64,000 bases of DNA from Acidimicrobiaceae bacterium (GTDB lineage: Bacteria > Actinomycetota > Acidimicrobiia > Acidimicrobiales > RAAP-2): assembly GCA_003132305.1 (NCBI GenBank), contig PKXJ01000004.1, forward strand, positions 86,830 to 150,829. The letters run 5' to 3'. This document shows positions 31,154 through 36,786 of the stretch, in pieces; position 1 is the stretch's first letter; the number at the start of each line of letters is the position of its first letter. The translations under genes were made by a program, and so were the position numbers. The notes beneath the pieces were generated by a model, which was not told where the DNA came from, searched no databases, and worked only from the letters and a program-made list of their open reading frames with translations.

Positions 31154-31855
31154 GTGACTACCGCTCCCACACCCAACTCCTACGTGGCCATCGTCGACGA
31201 CGACTCGGCTATTCGCTCGTCCCTCGGACGCGCCCTGCGCATGGAGAACTACGACGTCGAACTCTTCGAAGACGGTACGAGCGCCCTCAAGTCGATCCAA
31301 CTTCGCGCGCCCGACGCGATCGTGCTCGACCTGCAACTGCCCGATATTGACGGACTGGAAATCTGTCGGCGCATTCGCCGCTCCGGCGATACGACGCCCA
31401 TTTTGATGTTGACCGCGCGCAACGCCGTGAACGACCGGGTCGAGGGTCTCGACGTCGGAGCCGACGACTACCTAGTGAAGCCCTTCGACCTGGCGGAGTT
31501 GCTGGCGCGACTGCGCGCGCTGCTGCGTCGACACAACGTCGGCGACGTCGACGGCACGGTGCTTCGCTTCGAAGATCTCACGCTCAATCCTCAGACGCGC
31601 GAAGTGCACCGCGGCACTCGACTGATCGAACTGACCAAGATCGAGTTTGACCTCCTCGAACTTTTCTTGCACCACCCGCGCCAGGTACTCACTCGCGATC
31701 AGATCCTGGATCTGGTGTGGGGCTACAACTTTGACTCGGGCACGAACTCCTTGGCCGTCTACATTGGCTACCTCCGGCGCAAACTCGAAGAAGACAACAA
31801 GGCGCGACTCATCCAAACGGTGCGCGGAGTGGGCTACGCGCTTCGAACGTCGTGA
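31154..31855 (+). CDS. OmpR/PhoB-family response regulator (MprA-like)
   Basis: A 233-residue regulator. The receiver domain has acidic residues in VAIVDDDSA, the phosphorylated Asp in IVLDLQLPDIDG (about residue 60) and the conserved Lys in DYLVKPFDLAEL. After a linker comes the winged-helix DNA-binding domain ending in AVYIGYLRRKLEED and VRGVGYALR. GTG start. It overlaps the kinase gene start by 4 bases, so the pair form one signalling unit. A redox operon follows on the same strand and is a likely target. Confidence 0.94.
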   Translation: MTTAPTPNSYVAIVDDDSAIRSSLGRALRMENYDVELFEDGTSALKSIQLRAPDAIVLDLQLPDIDGLEICRRIRRSGDTTPILMLTARNAVNDRVEGLDVGADDYLVKPFDLAELLARLRALLRRHNVGDVDGTVLRFEDLTLNPQTREVHRGTRLIELTKIEFDLLELFLHHPRQVLTRDQILDLVWGYNFDSGTNSLAVYIGYLRRKLEEDNKARLIQTVRGVGYALRTS

Positions 31856-33192
31856 CGTTTCGCGTACGCGTCATCACGGCGACCGTGGCGGCCGCCGCGA
31901 TCGCCGTGATCCTCGCCAGTTTTGCGTCGTACCTCATTGCGCGTAGCGCGATTCTGCACTCGGTGGACGAGTCGCTGATCCAGGCTTCGCAACAGCGACT
32001 ACGCGTGAGCGACGACAACCGCGTCACCGGCTCCTACTCCGAGACCGTTCTGCCCACGGGCCAGACGTTGCCGACCTCCAACGTGCCCATCGACGCCACG
32101 ATCAAGAGCGTCGCGAACGGCAAGAGCTCGCGAGTCATTCGCACCATCACCCTGGAGGGTCAGTCCTACCGCGAACTGATCGAACCACTGCCTAAGAACT
32201 CGGTCGTCAACTGCCCGACGGGCACCTGTCAGATTTCGACGACCTCGGCGCAGCTCTACATGGTCGACATCACGGGACAGGTCACCGAACTCAGTCGCTT
32301 GGTCTCGACCCTGATGCTCGTCGCGGCGGGCGGTCTGCTCCTCGCGTTTGGCCTCGGACTCTTCCTCGCGCGCCAGGCCCTGCACCCCCTCGAAAAGGTC
32401 ACCAACGAGATCGAAACGGTCGCCACGACCAACGATCTGCAGTACCGGCTGACCGAAGGCGACGCCGACGAACTGGGACGGCTCCGAAGAGTCTTTAACC
32501 GACTCCTTCGATCGGTCGAGAGCAGTCAGACCCTGCAGCGTCAACTCGTCCTCGACGCGAGTCACGAACTGAGAACGCCGCTGACGTCGCTACGCACCAA
32601 CGCCCAGGTACTCTCGCGCGCGCCCGAACTCAATCCCGAGGAACTCCGCCAGATCACTGACGACATGGTCACCCAAGTCGACGAGCTGGCCGCGCTCGTC
32701 ACCGACCTCGGCGAGCTCGCCCGCGGCGAAAAGTCCGAGGGCGAACCCGAGACCCTTCGACTCGACGACTGCGTCGACGAGTGCGTAGAGACCGCTCGCA
32801 CCTACGCGCGCATTCGCGACATCACGATGGACGTCGAGTTGGAAACTTCGTTCGTGCGGGCCCGACACGACCGTCTCAATCGCGCGATCTCGAATCTACT
32901 GACGAACGCCGTAAAGTTCACCCCCGTCGGTGGACGGATCATGGTCACGACCTCGCACGGCACGGTCACGGTCGCCGACAGCGGCGCGGGCATCAGTGAC
33001 GAAGACCGCCAGTTCGTCTTTGACCGATTCTGGCGATCTCCGTCTGCCCGATCGCTCCCGGGATCGGGGCTCGGACTCTCCATCGTGGCCCAGGTCGTTG
33101 AGGAGCTCGGCGGCACCGTCGCCGTGGATCGAGATCCGACGCTCGGCGGCGCCCGATTCATCATCAGCGTGCCCGAAATCACCGAAGCGTAG
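31852..33192 (+). CDS. Sensor histidine kinase (MprB-like)
   Basis: A 446-residue membrane kinase, partner of the preceding regulator. Transmembrane helix 1 is at about residues 7-30 and helix 2 at about 153-175 (LMLVAAGGLLLAFGLGLFLA), enclosing an extracytoplasmic sensor of about 120 residues that has two cysteines (NCPTGTC) which could respond to redox state or form a disulfide. A HAMP domain, HisKA with phosphorylated His in DASHELRTPLTSL, and an HATPase domain (NAVKFTP, DSGAGISDEDR, GSGLGLSIV) follow. Everything needed for activity is visible. The stimulus is unknown. Confidence 0.94.
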   Translation: MTFRVRVITATVAAAAIAVILASFASYLIARSAILHSVDESLIQASQQRLRVSDDNRVTGSYSETVLPTGQTLPTSNVPIDATIKSVANGKSSRVIRTITLEGQSYRELIEPLPKNSVVNCPTGTCQISTTSAQLYMVDITGQVTELSRLVSTLMLVAAGGLLLAFGLGLFLARQALHPLEKVTNEIETVATTNDLQYRLTEGDADELGRLRRVFNRLLRSVESSQTLQRQLVLDASHELRTPLTSLRTNAQVLSRAPELNPEELRQITDDMVTQVDELAALVTDLGELARGEKSEGEPETLRLDDCVDECVETARTYARIRDITMDVELETSFVRARHDRLNRAISNLLTNAVKFTPVGGRIMVTTSHGTVTVADSGAGISDEDRQFVFDRFWRSPSARSLPGSGLGLSIVAQVVEELGGTVAVDRDPTLGGARFIISVPEITEA

Positions 33193-33278: not shown

Positions 33279-33632
33279 TTGACCCCCGCCACCCGTACCC
33301 CCCAGCAACGCGATCGCCGATTCGCGCGAGTCCGTCGACTCACCCAGACCCTCCTCGTGGGCTCGGGCGTCGTTTCGGCCGTACTCGTGGTGTACCTCGC
33401 CGGCGCGGCCAAGCCCGCGGTCATCGTGCCAACCACGGTGCCCGCCGTGCCAACCACGGTGCCCACGACGACGAGCAGCTCTTCTGAGTCGGATGACGCC
33501 CCGACGACGACGCCCACGACCGGGTCGGTCACGACGCCCACCACCGGATCGGTCACCACGCCTACGACCGTGCCGGTCACGACGACCACGGTGTGCACCA
33601 CGACGCCCTCTGGTCAAGTGACCTGCTACTAG
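33279..33632 (+). CDS. Single-pass membrane protein with Thr/Pro-rich tail, function unknown
   Basis: A 117-residue protein from a TTG start, with GAGGAG 5-10 bases before it. About 24 basic cytoplasmic residues, one transmembrane helix (TLLVGSGVVSAVLVVYLAGAA), then about 70 extracytoplasmic residues made almost wholly of Thr, Pro, Val and Ser with a tandem TTGSVTTP repeat. It ends in CTTTPSGQVTCY, with two cysteines. No domain is recognised. It is the first gene of the redox operon, the place where an FMN-binding flavinylation substrate might be expected, but I see no such domain. It could be a wall-spanning linker or cofactor carrier. Confidence 0.65.
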   Translation: MTPATRTPQQRDRRFARVRRLTQTLLVGSGVVSAVLVVYLAGAAKPAVIVPTTVPAVPTTVPTTTSSSSESDDAPTTTPTTGSVTTPTTGSVTTPTTVPVTTTTVCTTTPSGQVTCY

Positions 33633-33639
33633 TGGCGCC

Positions 33640-34539
33640 ATGAACTTCAAGATCTGGGGCGTCAGCGGAACGCTCGTTACCGAGCACGATCACCAGATGA
33701 TCTTCGCCCAAGATCGGCTCTGGCACTGGCTCGACGAGTTCGACGTTACGTGCAATCGTTTTCGAGACGACTCGGAGATCTCACGATTGAACGCTCGCGC
33801 CGGCGAGACCGTTCCCATTAGCGCCACCCTCGAACTCGCCCTCAGTGCGGCGCTCGTCGCGCGCGAAGCCACCGAGGGGCTCTGCGACCCCAGCGTGCTG
33901 CCGGCGCTGCTGGCTCTGGGCTACGACGTCGACTACGACGAACTCAAGGCCCGAAACGACACGACCCTCGCGGCGCCGGTGAAGGGCGCGGGGCCCGACG
34001 CCTTCGCCCTCGATCGAGCGGAGCGCACCGTAACGCTCGCCGCGGGATGTCAACTCGACCTCGGCGCGAGTGCGAAGGCGCTCGTGGCCGACTTGATCGC
34101 GAACGACGTGGCCCCTTCGGGCGGCGTGGTCGTCGAAGTCGGTGGCGACGTCGCGGTTCGCGGTCACGGGCCCCAGGGTCTGTGGGCCATCGGTCTCAGT
34201 GACTCCTTAGAACTAAAGGGAAATGAACCGCGCGTCGCCATTCAGAACGGCGGTATTGCGACGTCGTCGACGACGACGCGCACGTGGCGCGCCAATGGAC
34301 AGCTCGTCAACCACATCATTGATCCGCGAACGGGAAGTTACGCGGTGGGTCCGTACGCCTCCGCCACCGTTTCAGCGAGCAGCTGCGTTCTCGCGAACGC
34401 GTTCGCGACCGCGTCGTTGCTGTGGGGCGAGGACGCCGCGTATCACGTCGCGCAGGCCGGTTGGTCCGGCCGTTTCGTGCGCGGCGACGGAGCCGTGGAG
34501 TTCGTGGGCGGCTGGCCCCTCGACGAGGTGCCCGCGTGA
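33640..34539 (+). CDS. apbE: ApbE-family FAD:protein FMN transferase
   Basis: Attaches FMN covalently to Thr/Ser of target flavoproteins. The 299-residue product has LDLGASAKALVADL (FAD/Mg site), VEVGGDVAVRG, GGIATSSTTTRTW and the family signature HIIDPRTG. No signal peptide or lipobox is seen, so it appears cytoplasmic, unlike the usual exported ApbE. No target with a D-x-x-[ST]-G-A-[ST]-type motif was recognised in the window. It overlaps the next gene by 4 bases (GTGA). Confidence 0.92.
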   Translation: MNFKIWGVSGTLVTEHDHQMIFAQDRLWHWLDEFDVTCNRFRDDSEISRLNARAGETVPISATLELALSAALVAREATEGLCDPSVLPALLALGYDVDYDELKARNDTTLAAPVKGAGPDAFALDRAERTVTLAAGCQLDLGASAKALVADLIANDVAPSGGVVVEVGGDVAVRGHGPQGLWAIGLSDSLELKGNEPRVAIQNGGIATSSTTTRTWRANGQLVNHIIDPRTGSYAVGPYASATVSASSCVLANAFATASLLWGEDAAYHVAQAGWSGRFVRGDGAVEFVGGWPLDEVPA

Positions 34540-35282
34540 TTGCCCTCACGACGCCGTATCTCTGGTACACGACACGGGCCACCGGCATGGTCGCCCTAAT
34601 CCTCTTCACGCTCGTCGTCTCACTGGGAACGCTCGTGGCCAACCGAGTCGGTGGCACGGTCGTGGGACGCTTCGAGGTCAATGAACTGCACCGTTCGATC
34701 TCCATCGTGGCCATGGTGTTCTTGGTCCTTCACATCACGACCACGGTGGTTGACTCGTACGCGCCCACGGGCTGGCTGTCGGCCATCATCCCCTTCGCCT
34801 CGAAGTACCGAACAGTCGGGGTCGCGATTGGCGCCGTGGCCTTTGACCTCATTCTCGCCGTCTGGATCTCGAGCCTTCTCAAAGTTCGCGTGAAAAACGA
34901 GTCGTGGCGCTTAATCCACTGGTTTAGTTGGTTGGCTTTTTCGAGCGCCATCCTCCACGCCTACCTCACCGGCACCGACACCAAGGATGGCGTCGGACTC
35001 GCCGTGGTGGCGGCGTGCGCCCTGTGCGTGTTCGTGACCGCCCTGTGGCGTTACTTGGCGCGTCCCGCTCGAGCCGCTGGCCGTACGGCACTCTCCCCGC
35101 TCGCGGCGGCGAAGGGTCTCGCCACTCCGAGGGCGACGCAGTCCGGCCACGCTTCGGCGAGCTCTCCCTCGGCCTTTCCACGGAGCCCGGACGCCCGGGC
35201 AAAGTCCAGGCACGCATCACCGGACACTCCCTCATCCTTCCCACATAGTCCGGCTCCTCGCCGCTCGAAGAGGTATCGCTAA
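34536..35282 (+). CDS. Ferric-reductase-like di-heme membrane protein
   Basis: A 248-residue polytopic membrane protein with about five or six hydrophobic helices, ending in a basic, Ser/Pro-rich tail of about 60 residues. Four histidines lie in pairs, in ELHRSISI, VLHITTTV, LIHWFSWL and ILHAYLTG, a pattern fitting two bis-His b hemes as in ferric reductase and NADPH-oxidase-type domains. No FAD/NAD domain is attached; the NuoF-like protein that follows could donate electrons. GTG 34536 is chosen for its overlap with apbE. Its stop and the next start share bases (TAATG). Confidence 0.83.
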   Translation: MIALTTPYLWYTTRATGMVALILFTLVVSLGTLVANRVGGTVVGRFEVNELHRSISIVAMVFLVLHITTTVVDSYAPTGWLSAIIPFASKYRTVGVAIGAVAFDLILAVWISSLLKVRVKNESWRLIHWFSWLAFSSAILHAYLTGTDTKDGVGLAVVAACALCVFVTALWRYLARPARAAGRTALSPLAAAKGLATPRATQSGHASASSPSAFPRSPDARAKSRHASPDTPSSFPHSPAPRRSKRYR

Positions 35283-36556
35283 TGCTCGCGCACGAACTCC
35301 CCCGACTTCTCTTTGGCACCCCGGGCAACCCGTTGACGCTGGCGCAACACAAGGCGACTTTCGCGAGCACCTTCAACGCGGAGTCGCTCCTGGGCGAACT
35401 TGAGGCTTCGGGTCTGACCGGGCGAGGGGGTGCCGCTTTTCCCACCGCTCGAAAGGCTCGACTCCTTCGAGAACAGCGCGGACACCACAAGGTGGTCGTC
35501 GTGAACGCCATGGAAGGCGAACCGGTTTCCTACAAAGATTCGACACTGCTCAGCACCAACCCGCATCTCGTACTCGACGGCGCGGCGATACTCGCCTCGA
35601 TTATTGGCGCCAACCACGTCATCGTTTGCGTTTCGCGCGACAATCCCACCGCCGTGGGACACGTGCAACGCGCGCTCGACGAACGCCAGCGAGGCGGTTC
35701 TAAGGGGCCCGAATTCAACCTCGAAACAGCGCCGTGGCGTTACGTGGCCGGTGAGGAGTCCGCTTTGGTGCACTGGCTCAACGACAACGAATCGCTGCCC
35801 CAGTATCGCCCCCAGCGCCCCGACATCCTCAAATTGAGCCATCGCTCCGTCCTACTGGACAACGTCGAAACGTGCGCCAACGTCGGATTGATCGGACGAT
35901 ACGGCGCCGCGTGGTTTCGCACCTTGGGAACCAGGACCAGCCCGGGGTCTGTCCTGGTCACACTCACCGGCGCCGTCGAGCGCCCCAAGGTTCTCGAAGT
36001 CGCACCGGGCATGACCCTTCGAACAGTTCTCAACGTCGCCGACGCCGACCCCGACCCGCAAGCCTTGCTGCTCGGGGGTTACGGCGGCTCGTGGCTGGAC
36101 GGCGCGTTGCTCGATACGCCCTACGACAACGAGTCCTTGGCGCCGTTGGGCGCCTCGGTGGGTGCGGGCATCGTCGTGGTTCTCGGACGCCAGGGCTGTG
36201 GCGTGGTCGAGACGCAACGAGTCGTCAAGTGGATGGCCAACGAGAGCGCCCGCCAGTGCGGACCGTGCGCCTTTGGACTTCCGGCCCTTAGTGAAGATCT
36301 CGCCGAACTGAGTACGGGATCACGAAACTCGACGAAAGCCCTCCAGAGACTCGAACAACGTTGCGGCGTCATCGAGGGTCGAGGCGCCTGCCATCACCCC
36401 GACGGTGTCGTGCGCCTCGTTCGATCGGCGCTTCGCGTTTTCGCCGAGGACTTCAAGAGCCACTCGCGAGGTACGCCGTGTCTCGGCTCACGCTCGAAGA
36501 AGTACTTCGTCGCGGTGCCGCGACTCGAACACGAAAGCGAATTGATATGGGTGTGA
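35282..36556 (+). CDS. NuoF-like FMN/iron-sulfur oxidoreductase
   Basis: A 424-residue relative of the complex I 51-kDa subunit. FMN/NADH sites are seen in GLTGRGGAAFPTARK and NAMEGEPVSYKDS; an SLBB region occupies the middle; a C-terminal iron-sulfur domain has RQCGPCAFGLPAL and GRGACHHPDG. The first of the four usual cluster cysteines is not conserved, but an extra Cys (QRCGVIEG) is close by. There is no NuoE or NuoG partner, so it must work with the ferredoxin and the di-heme protein of this operon. It likely moves electrons between NAD(P)H or ferredoxin and the membrane. It overlaps the ferredoxin gene by 10 bases. Confidence 0.88.
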   Translation: MLAHELPRLLFGTPGNPLTLAQHKATFASTFNAESLLGELEASGLTGRGGAAFPTARKARLLREQRGHHKVVVVNAMEGEPVSYKDSTLLSTNPHLVLDGAAILASIIGANHVIVCVSRDNPTAVGHVQRALDERQRGGSKGPEFNLETAPWRYVAGEESALVHWLNDNESLPQYRPQRPDILKLSHRSVLLDNVETCANVGLIGRYGAAWFRTLGTRTSPGSVLVTLTGAVERPKVLEVAPGMTLRTVLNVADADPDPQALLLGGYGGSWLDGALLDTPYDNESLAPLGASVGAGIVVVLGRQGCGVVETQRVVKWMANESARQCGPCAFGLPALSEDLAELSTGSRNSTKALQRLEQRCGVIEGRGACHHPDGVVRLVRSALRVFAEDFKSHSRGTPCLGSRSKKYFVAVPRLEHESELIWV

Positions 36557-36786
36557 GACGGCGCACGGGCGGCTTCTATCTTCGAGTGAACCCGATTCTC
36601 TGTGACGGCTTCGGGCACTGTCACGAACTGGCCCCCGAACTCGTGAATATGGACGAGTGGGGCTATCCGATCATCGAAAAAGAGCCGACGCCACTGAGCG
36701 AACTCGCCGCGCTCGAATCCGCGCGCTACGCCGTACGAGGCTGTCCGCGCCAAGCGCTGCGCATCGAACGAGTCAGCGAAGCGTAG
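36547..36786 (+). CDS. Ferredoxin, probably [3Fe-4S]
   Basis: A 79-residue ferredoxin from ATG 36547. The cluster ligands are in ILCDGFGHCHELAPEL and GCPRQALRI: three cysteines in the CxxxxxC...CP arrangement of small actinobacterial [3Fe-4S] ferredoxins, with Gly/His in place of the fourth. The longer open frame upstream is within the NuoF-like gene and is rejected. It is presumably the electron partner of the NuoF-like protein. The 3' end overlaps the convergent VOC gene by 14 bases. Confidence 0.85.
   Translation: MGVRRRTGGFYLRVNPILCDGFGHCHELAPELVNMDEWGYPIIEKEPTPLSELAALESARYAVRGCPRQALRIERVSEA

Follow-up and report, generated by a model that had tools for sequence, protein, structure and literature searches.

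A candidate flavin-bearing stalk in place of an FMN_bind protein beside an altered ApbE in an acidimicrobial redox operon

We analysed a stretch of 64,000 nucleotides (the window) from an Acidimicrobiaceae bacterium (assembly GCA_003132305.1, contig PKXJ01000004.1, positions 86,830 to 150,829) and, within it, an operon of five redox genes. They encode a Thr-rich protein with a single transmembrane helix (the stalk), an ApbE-family protein, a PF01794 membrane cytochrome b, a NuoF-like protein and a small ferredoxin (Table 1). As far as the sequences allow, the best explanation, which we hold tentatively and at a little under an even chance, is transmembrane electron transfer in which a divergent ApbE would flavinylate a Ser in the stalk tail and so provide a tethered flavin. 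It is also possible, at rather under an even chance, that this ApbE belongs to a second actinobacterial lineage with a rebuilt site (Asp/Thr changed to Asn/Thr, Glu/Thr or Glu/Lys). The substrate of that lineage would be the C-terminal end of a stalk that is disordered, anchored in the membrane and rich in Ser, Thr and Pro, and that replaces FMN_bind. The strongest competing explanation is that ApbE here is a subunit that holds FAD and has no metal.

We favour the tethered flavin for several reasons. The stalk is encoded upstream of most altered ApbEs and of none of the searchable canonical ones without a detected FMN_bind, and its tail is conserved though its linker is not. It shares a transmembrane segment, a Thr-rich linker and adjacency to ApbE with an FMN_bind protein encoded elsewhere in the genome. 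The operon ApbE retains the active-site Lys, Ser and His. Stalk-bearing genomes without a linked ApbE carry an altered ApbE elsewhere, and stalkless relatives lack a close ApbE. Finally, there are precedents for acceptor sites at protein ends.

A stalk that accompanies altered ApbEs

The NuoF-like protein served as query for relatives in the GTDB genome collection. The scan gave 98 relatives, the best 80 of which were used as operon loci (L002-L081), in stretches of 3-17 kb each. Their sources are mostly Acidimicrobiaceae, Acidimicrobiales, Actinomycetes or actinobacterium metagenome-assembled genomes; a few other titles are perhaps mislabelled. Residue and motif counts cover the window and those of the 80 loci that yielded a long enough unbroken protein. 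In addition, 107 further ApbE open reading frames (ORFs) from the neighbourhoods of other genomes were classified by residue and context.

The build of the stalk is conserved (Arg-rich N terminus, transmembrane helix, Ser/Thr/Pro linker of variable length, conserved end). A stalk ORF lies directly 5' of ApbE in 66 of 72 operon loci; four have none, and in two the contig is too short. It was also found upstream of other altered ApbEs at 40 of 54 loci, comprising 25/37 Glu-type, 13/15 Asn-type and 2/2 Asp/Lys copies. One locus is counted in both altered sets (L196 is L076). As a weak control, canonical Asp/Thr ApbEs beside which no FMN_bind was detected had a stalk at 0 of 24 searchable loci, the 25th being too near a contig end. 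An earlier, cruder count had given 19/37 Glu, 9/15 Asn and 2/55 Asp; the stalk criteria were loosened after the missed loci had been read, and the Glu and Asn counts rose. A stalk-like ORF 2.9 kb upstream in L126 was judged spurious. Three loci (L115, L116 and L117) have a second stalk-like ORF 5' of the first, and in L115 and L117 both end in [ST]-x-[GA]-S.

The end of the stalk takes two forms. In the window's clade a Cys pair surrounds the motif [ST]-x-[PA]-S-G, which is present in 58/58 hairpin-type stalks; its invariant Ser is Ser111 here. The C-terminal Cys pair flanking SG occurs in 54 of 70 operon loci. Among non-hairpin stalks, [ST].[GAQ]S falls within the last eight residues in 38 of 48 (shuffled mean 4.6; reached in 0 of 2000 shuffles) and at the very end in 24 of 48 (shuffled 1.0), and [ST]G[AGQ][ST] lies close to the end in 24 of 48 (shuffled 1.3), the contrast with shuffled tails being descriptive. 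The canonical [ST]GA[ST] stands near the C terminus in four of the 48 (L147, L189, L202 and L203; shuffled mean 0.6, with 6 of 2000 shuffles reaching four). Of these, L147, L202 and L203 pair a Glu/Lys-type ApbE with a stalk whose last residues are SGAS or TGAS.

Selection seems to act on the protein sequence of the tail, because the motif codons vary (GGT, GGC, GGG and GGA; AGC, TCA, TCG, TCC and AGT) and few tails hold a tetramer resembling a Shine-Dalgarno (SD) sequence: 12 of the 46 tails listed have one, and none is formed in 34. The Ser codon of the window's stalk precedes the ApbE start by about 30 bases, and the 7-base gap between the stalk stop and that start is without an SD. On these grounds we rejected the idea that the motif is an SD artefact of overlapping genes. 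A truncated FMN_bind gene was likewise rejected as the origin of the stalk, given the 7-base gap to ApbE and because no FMN_bind was detected in the loci of relatives. The preliminary description of this locus had named the Thr-rich protein as one of two possible ApbE targets. We now favour it, because of its conserved C-terminal Ser motif and because it tracks the altered ApbE, with Ser111 as the candidate site.

The metal site of ApbE

The AlphaFold2 model of the operon ApbE (pLDDT 94.5) is a confident ApbE fold, and the nearest structure found by Foldseek is Listeria FmnB (7f2u, template-modelling score 0.85). K146, S209 and H225 correspond to Lys190, Ser257 and His273 of FmnB (PMC8906456; papers cited by PMC number are drawn on through passages of their open-access text). 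All three are conserved in 73/73 operon copies and 88/88 Asn-type copies, and F41 is retained in 84/88 of the latter. The enzyme thus shares its fold and active-site residues with FmnB and the ApbE-Ftp proteins, but differs from them at two positions. The Gly that follows the active-site Lys is Ala in 73/73 operon copies, and residue 253 is Asn in 73/73. PDB sequence alignments and an equal Asp-His spacing within the proposed triad place Asn253 at Asp301 of FmnB and Asp280 of E. coli Ftp; the aligned PDB sequence has Asp there in 5/5 alignments shown. In FmnB, Asp301 coordinates both Mg2+ ions, and Ala at metal-coordinating residues greatly reduces or abolishes activity (PMC8906456).

The residue at this position was compared with genomic context in the 107 further ORFs. 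ApbEs that adjoin FMN_bind have Asp in 28/28, counting detected neighbours only. Those beside PF01794 alone (n=34) are Glu 29, Asp 3 and Asn 2; those beside a NuoF-like match (n=23) are Asn 11, Asp 8 and Glu 4; and those in other contexts (n=22) are Asp 16, Glu 4 and Asn 2. For the eight Asp-type copies with a "NuoF" neighbour, the match is probably RnfC in Rnf clusters. Two such loci, L211 and L220, hold ORFs with SGATISS/TGATISS. With our home-made profile, FMN_bind adjoined 0 of 52 Asn or Glu ORFs. In the Glu-type sister group the Thr metal ligand is also changed, to Lys in 26 of 37. With the altered columns left out, a tree was built from 83 sampled copies (31 Asn, 22 of 37 Glu and 30 of 55 Asp). 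A branch with SH-aLRT 99 sets off the Asn type, which lies together with the Glu type and separate from 29 of the 30 Asp copies; the tree comes from a quick search with SH-aLRT support only and a midpoint root.

The lost metal-ligand Asp leaves open that this ApbE may be no transferase at all, a point missed by the preliminary description. In that case the protein would be a pseudo-transferase that has kept its FAD pocket and lost its metal site. It would serve as a cytosolic FAD subunit between the NuoF-like/ferredoxin pair and the haems, and the stalk would be a subunit for assembly or anchoring, docked through its tail to a partner. We regard this as unlikely, though far from negligible. 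The changed ligands, the separate branch, the held pocket residues and the lack of FMN_bind beside altered copies are all compatible with it, and E. coli Ftp binds FAD with micromolar affinity and has no FAD pyrophosphatase activity (PMC4767422). However, it leaves unexplained both the selected short Ser motif at the stalk end and the invariant general-base His. Nor is an extra FAD subunit obligatory, as PF01794-NuoF pairs occur in genus g72 without a stalk or a close ApbE.

This last point comes from genomes in which the genes are not linked. In two genomes of genus g84 (NuoF-like identity 44-46%), the stalk, PF01794 and NuoF-like genes stand together with no ApbE within a 13-kb stretch. The same two genomes encode an ApbE elsewhere (E 1.0e-80 and 2.5e-78), both with Asn253 and Thr257. 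Seven other g84 genomes with a remoter NuoF-like protein (36-38% identity) gave no ApbE match. Eight g72 genomes were found; in the four that were read, and in one g186 genome, a PF01794 ORF accompanies a NuoF-like ORF with no convincing stalk. An ApbE match is absent in two of the eight g72 genomes and weak and partial in six (best E ~1e-13 to 1e-14).

Candidate flavin acceptors

No FMN_bind domain was found by Pfam among the five operon proteins, and no FMN_bind ORF in the 80 operon loci by a home-made profile grown from the FMN_bind domain on contig C20 (E up to 0.01). Some genuine FMN_bind genes in probable Rnf loci, at least, escaped this profile, and its sensitivity limits both the 28 of 28 above and the 0 in 80 loci, since only detected neighbours are counted. 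PF03116 is without a match anywhere in the genome, and NqrB/RnfD was rejected as the acceptor on this ground. Pfam showed no DUF2271, DUF3570, Flavodoxin_4 or FMN_red domain in the eight window proteins scanned; a genome-wide search for these was not made. The earlier statement that the operon has no recognisable flavin acceptor stands for the operon itself and for its relatives' loci as far as this profile reaches. It does not extend to the genome, which encodes one FMN_bind protein.

That protein, the only one in the genome (2.9 Mb, 35 contigs), belongs to another operon on contig C20 (L001), where its gene sits between a ferric-reductase-like gene and a second ApbE. To judge from its sequence, a transmembrane segment at the N terminus is followed by a Thr-rich linker and then by an FMN_bind domain that contains SGATYTS. 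The two operons are alike in having a membrane cytochrome, a Thr-rich anchored protein and an ApbE without an evident signal. The C20 operon differs in that its anchored protein ends in an FMN_bind domain, its ApbE has the canonical Asp, and its cytochrome ORF is the longer of the two, at 415 aa, and looks from its sequence as if it included an FAD/NAD domain. The lack of a signal peptide in the window's ApbE, reported before, agrees with our reading, in which no N-terminal hydrophobic signal is evident. It is not special, as the C20 ApbE apparently lacks one too. For C20, a signal-less ApbE and an N-terminal transmembrane segment in its FMN_bind partner would imply flavinylation ahead of export.

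Across the genus, FMN_bind is present in 28 of 37 genomes (our own included) and adjoins an ApbE in all 28, while the operon's NuoF-like gene occurs in 32 of 37. In eight of these 32 genomes, all drafts that are 75-97% complete, FMN_bind gave no match and ApbE just one, which adjoins the NuoF-like gene in six and is on a different contig in two. Because of these eight genomes, the operon ApbE seems to be retained without any FMN_bind partner.

This bears on the improbable case that ApbE flavinylates some other protein, either the cytochrome b or NuoF-like protein at a non-canonical site or, in trans, a protein encoded elsewhere, such as the FMN_bind protein of C20. ApbEs can modify DUF2271, DUF3570, Flavodoxin_4 and FMN_red proteins (PMC8238504, PMC11334425), and some Ser/Thr residues of the cytochrome are highly conserved (S113 in 64/64). 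However, an [ST]GA[ST] motif is not conserved in ApbE or in the downstream partners (0/73 ApbE, 0/64 PF01794, 2/81 NuoF-like, 0/78 ferredoxins); among related stalks, 4 of 48 carry it near their C terminus and 38 of 48 the relaxed [ST].[GAQ]S. The eight genomes with one ApbE and no FMN_bind, and the 28 in which FMN_bind has an ApbE of its own beside it, also speak against this case. Modification of a partner at a non-canonical site, the other target proposed in the preliminary description, has less support.

Proposed electron path and points against it

Four-His PF01794 proteins carry electrons across the membrane via two haems. In NuoF-type proteins the FMN accepts a hydride from NAD(P)H, and the electrons then go one at a time to Fe-S clusters; ApbE moves FMN from FAD onto a Ser or Thr. 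We propose that the operon is an NAD(P)H- or ferredoxin-driven transmembrane electron-transfer system. The NuoF-like protein and ferredoxin would feed the haems from the cytosol, giving a path from NAD(P)H or ferredoxin through the NuoF-like FMN/Fe-S protein and haems b to the outside. Prior to export of the tail, the divergent ApbE would load the conserved tail Ser (in [ST]-x-[GAQP]-S; Ser111 in the window) with FMN taken from FAD. After export, the flavin tethered on a flexible stalk would accept electrons from the outer haem, the stalk standing in for the FMN_bind protein of the genome's canonical operon. Electron flow from NAD(P)H or ferredoxin across the membrane had been suggested before; the route given here is our inference. 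As for the acceptor site, a 7-residue motif at a protein terminus is enough for ApbE (PMC12052999), and the predicted sites of a flavinylated FMN_red protein lie on an unstructured C-terminal extension (PMC11334425).

Several observations weigh against flavinylation of the stalk. The metal-ligand Asp is replaced in every operon copy, and the sister group has Glu there and mostly Lys for Thr; because the equivalent of Asp301 is replaced, metal-dependent FMN transfer may no longer take place. The window's own clade shows no conservation where a canonical acceptor would stand, following SG, and its site must therefore be displaced by one motif register. To judge by the charges, the stalk tail should be outside and ApbE inside. 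The search for stalks came up empty at 12 of the 37 Glu-type loci, at 2 of the 15 Asn-type loci and at 4 of the 72 operon loci. Of the 25 canonical control loci, 20 are one batch of high-scoring ApbEs from distant genomes. The tail patterns were picked after some tails had been seen.

Clusters of PF01794 and apbE are known, mostly from Actinobacteria, and 31 of them include a NuoF-like PF10589 protein, presumed to be the NAD(P)H entry (Meheust et al. 2021, PMC8238504). They typically have an FMN_bind gene, and clusters were counted only with a signal peptide or lipidation site in a target gene (PMC8238504). Compared with the main text of that survey, the present operon resembles the MsrQ-like clusters in its PF01794 cytochrome b with four haem-type His beside apbE and in its NuoF-like protein. 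It differs in that no FMN_bind was found, ApbE is signal-less with a changed metal Asp, and a Thr-rich stalk takes the place of FMN_bind. According to the preliminary description, the family members are known and similar actinobacterial neighbourhoods exist, but the exact set is not known to have a described function. PF01794-ApbE-NuoF-like clusters are on record in the survey's main text; for the altered ApbE clade and the pairing of stalk and ApbE, no description was found in open-access PMC text. What is new here is this clade and the conserved stalk paired with it.

If the proposal is true, the stalk tail would represent a new class of ApbE substrate and the enzyme a metal-site variant. 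It could also account for part of the genomes with ApbE but without FMN_bind, which make up 17% of one survey's dataset (PMC8238504), and screens that require a signal peptide could miss such systems. If the protein is instead a pseudo-transferase, the ApbE fold would have been reused as a redox subunit.

Gene set and partner proteins

The five genes had been described as tightly linked, and all are indeed present on one strand, with neighbouring ends that overlap or almost abut (Table 1). The four genes for ApbE, PF01794, NuoF-like protein and ferredoxin are complete in 74 of 80 loci, and in 67 of the 68 with room on both sides; the exception, L072, has the NuoF-like gene only. The arrangement exceeds chance, because 67 of 68 roomy loci retain all four genes, and the view of the genes as one set holds in other genomes. 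The conserved unit is larger than first described, as the response regulator and histidine kinase, omitted before, precede the other genes in the same orientation at 50 of the 57 loci that offer room. The seven without this pair (L071-L073, L076 and L078-L080) are among the most distant members. A pattern search gave one weak promoter-like pattern and no terminator-like pattern, and an Rfam scan found two tRNAs only. Matches of the stalk to TraE and EccD are below cut-off.

Table 1. Features of the operon and of the regulatory genes upstream (window coordinates)
Feature	Position	Strand	Remarks
Response regulator (Response_reg + Trans_reg_C)	31154..31855	+	Pfam; kept 5' of the operon
HAMP sensor histidine kinase	31852..33192	+	Pfam; Cys pair C121, C126 in presumed extracytoplasmic region
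Thr-rich single-transmembrane stalk, 117 aa CTTTPSGQVTCY	33279..33632	+	Arg-rich N terminus, transmembrane helix, Thr/Pro/Ser linker, C-terminal Cys hairpin
Stalk Ser111 codon	33609..33611	+	Invariant Ser in hairpin clade; candidate FMN attachment site
ApbE-family protein	33640..34539	+	PF02424, E 9.6e-40; K146, S209, H225, T257 retained; Asn253 for metal-ligand Asp
ApbE Asn253 codon	34396..34398	+	Position of FmnB Asp301 / E. coli Asp280
PF01794 (MsrQ-like/ferric-reductase-like) membrane cytochrome b	34536..35282	+	E 2.1e-8; H52, H66, H128, H141 invariant
NuoF-like FMN/NAD(H)/Fe-S protein	35282..36556	+	PF01512, PF10589; first Cys of SCGxCxPC missing
Small ferredoxin, Fer4_15 (PF13459)	36547..36786	+	Three conserved Cys, C-x5-C ... 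CP

In the PF01794 protein, each of the four His is present in 64/64, and in the ferredoxin C19, C25 and C66 are present in 78/78. The NuoF-like protein has the domain order of NuoF and of the Nfn/HydB NAD(H) subunits (FMN, SLBB and Fe-S by Pfam), and its best fold matches are the B subunits of NfnABC and HydABC. It differs from them in that the first Cys of SCGxCxPC, the N3 cluster motif, is replaced in 81/81, a position at which the three PDB alignments shown have Cys, and its score is far below the NuoF family cut-off (197 against 559 bits). The remaining N3 Cys are kept (C326 81/81, C329 80/80, C370 80/81), as are C306 (80/81) and C400 (81/81), so the Fe-S cluster may have a non-standard ligand set.

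The sensor kinase has a Cys pair of its own (CPTGTC here), complete in 46 of the 56 sequences; a disulfide or redox-sensing loop that ties the system to the redox state of the envelope is possible. The stalk tail might be a redox or docking element unrelated to flavin; in the window's clade the Cys pair would then form a disulfide, structural or redox-active, that the cytochrome reduces. The two Cys pairs, in stalk and kinase, are in keeping with this, and ApbE/DUF3570 clusters can hold a DUF4266 protein whose C-terminal CXC may redox-cycle (PMC8238504). We consider it very improbable nonetheless, in view of the stalks outside the window's clade, which mostly lack the Cys pair yet carry the Ser motif in 38 of 48. 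The kinase and stalk pairs do not covary: L004 has lost the kinase pair and kept that of the stalk.

In L126-L129 and L131, the NuoF-like and ferredoxin profiles match one ORF, possibly a fusion, beside a PF01794 ORF; these stretches contain no ApbE and no convincing stalk. In L133 and L134, remoter pairs of NuoF-like protein and ferredoxin lie beside ORFs that read as Rieske-like, alpha/beta-hydrolase-like and amidohydrolase-like, which suggests a separate reductase role.

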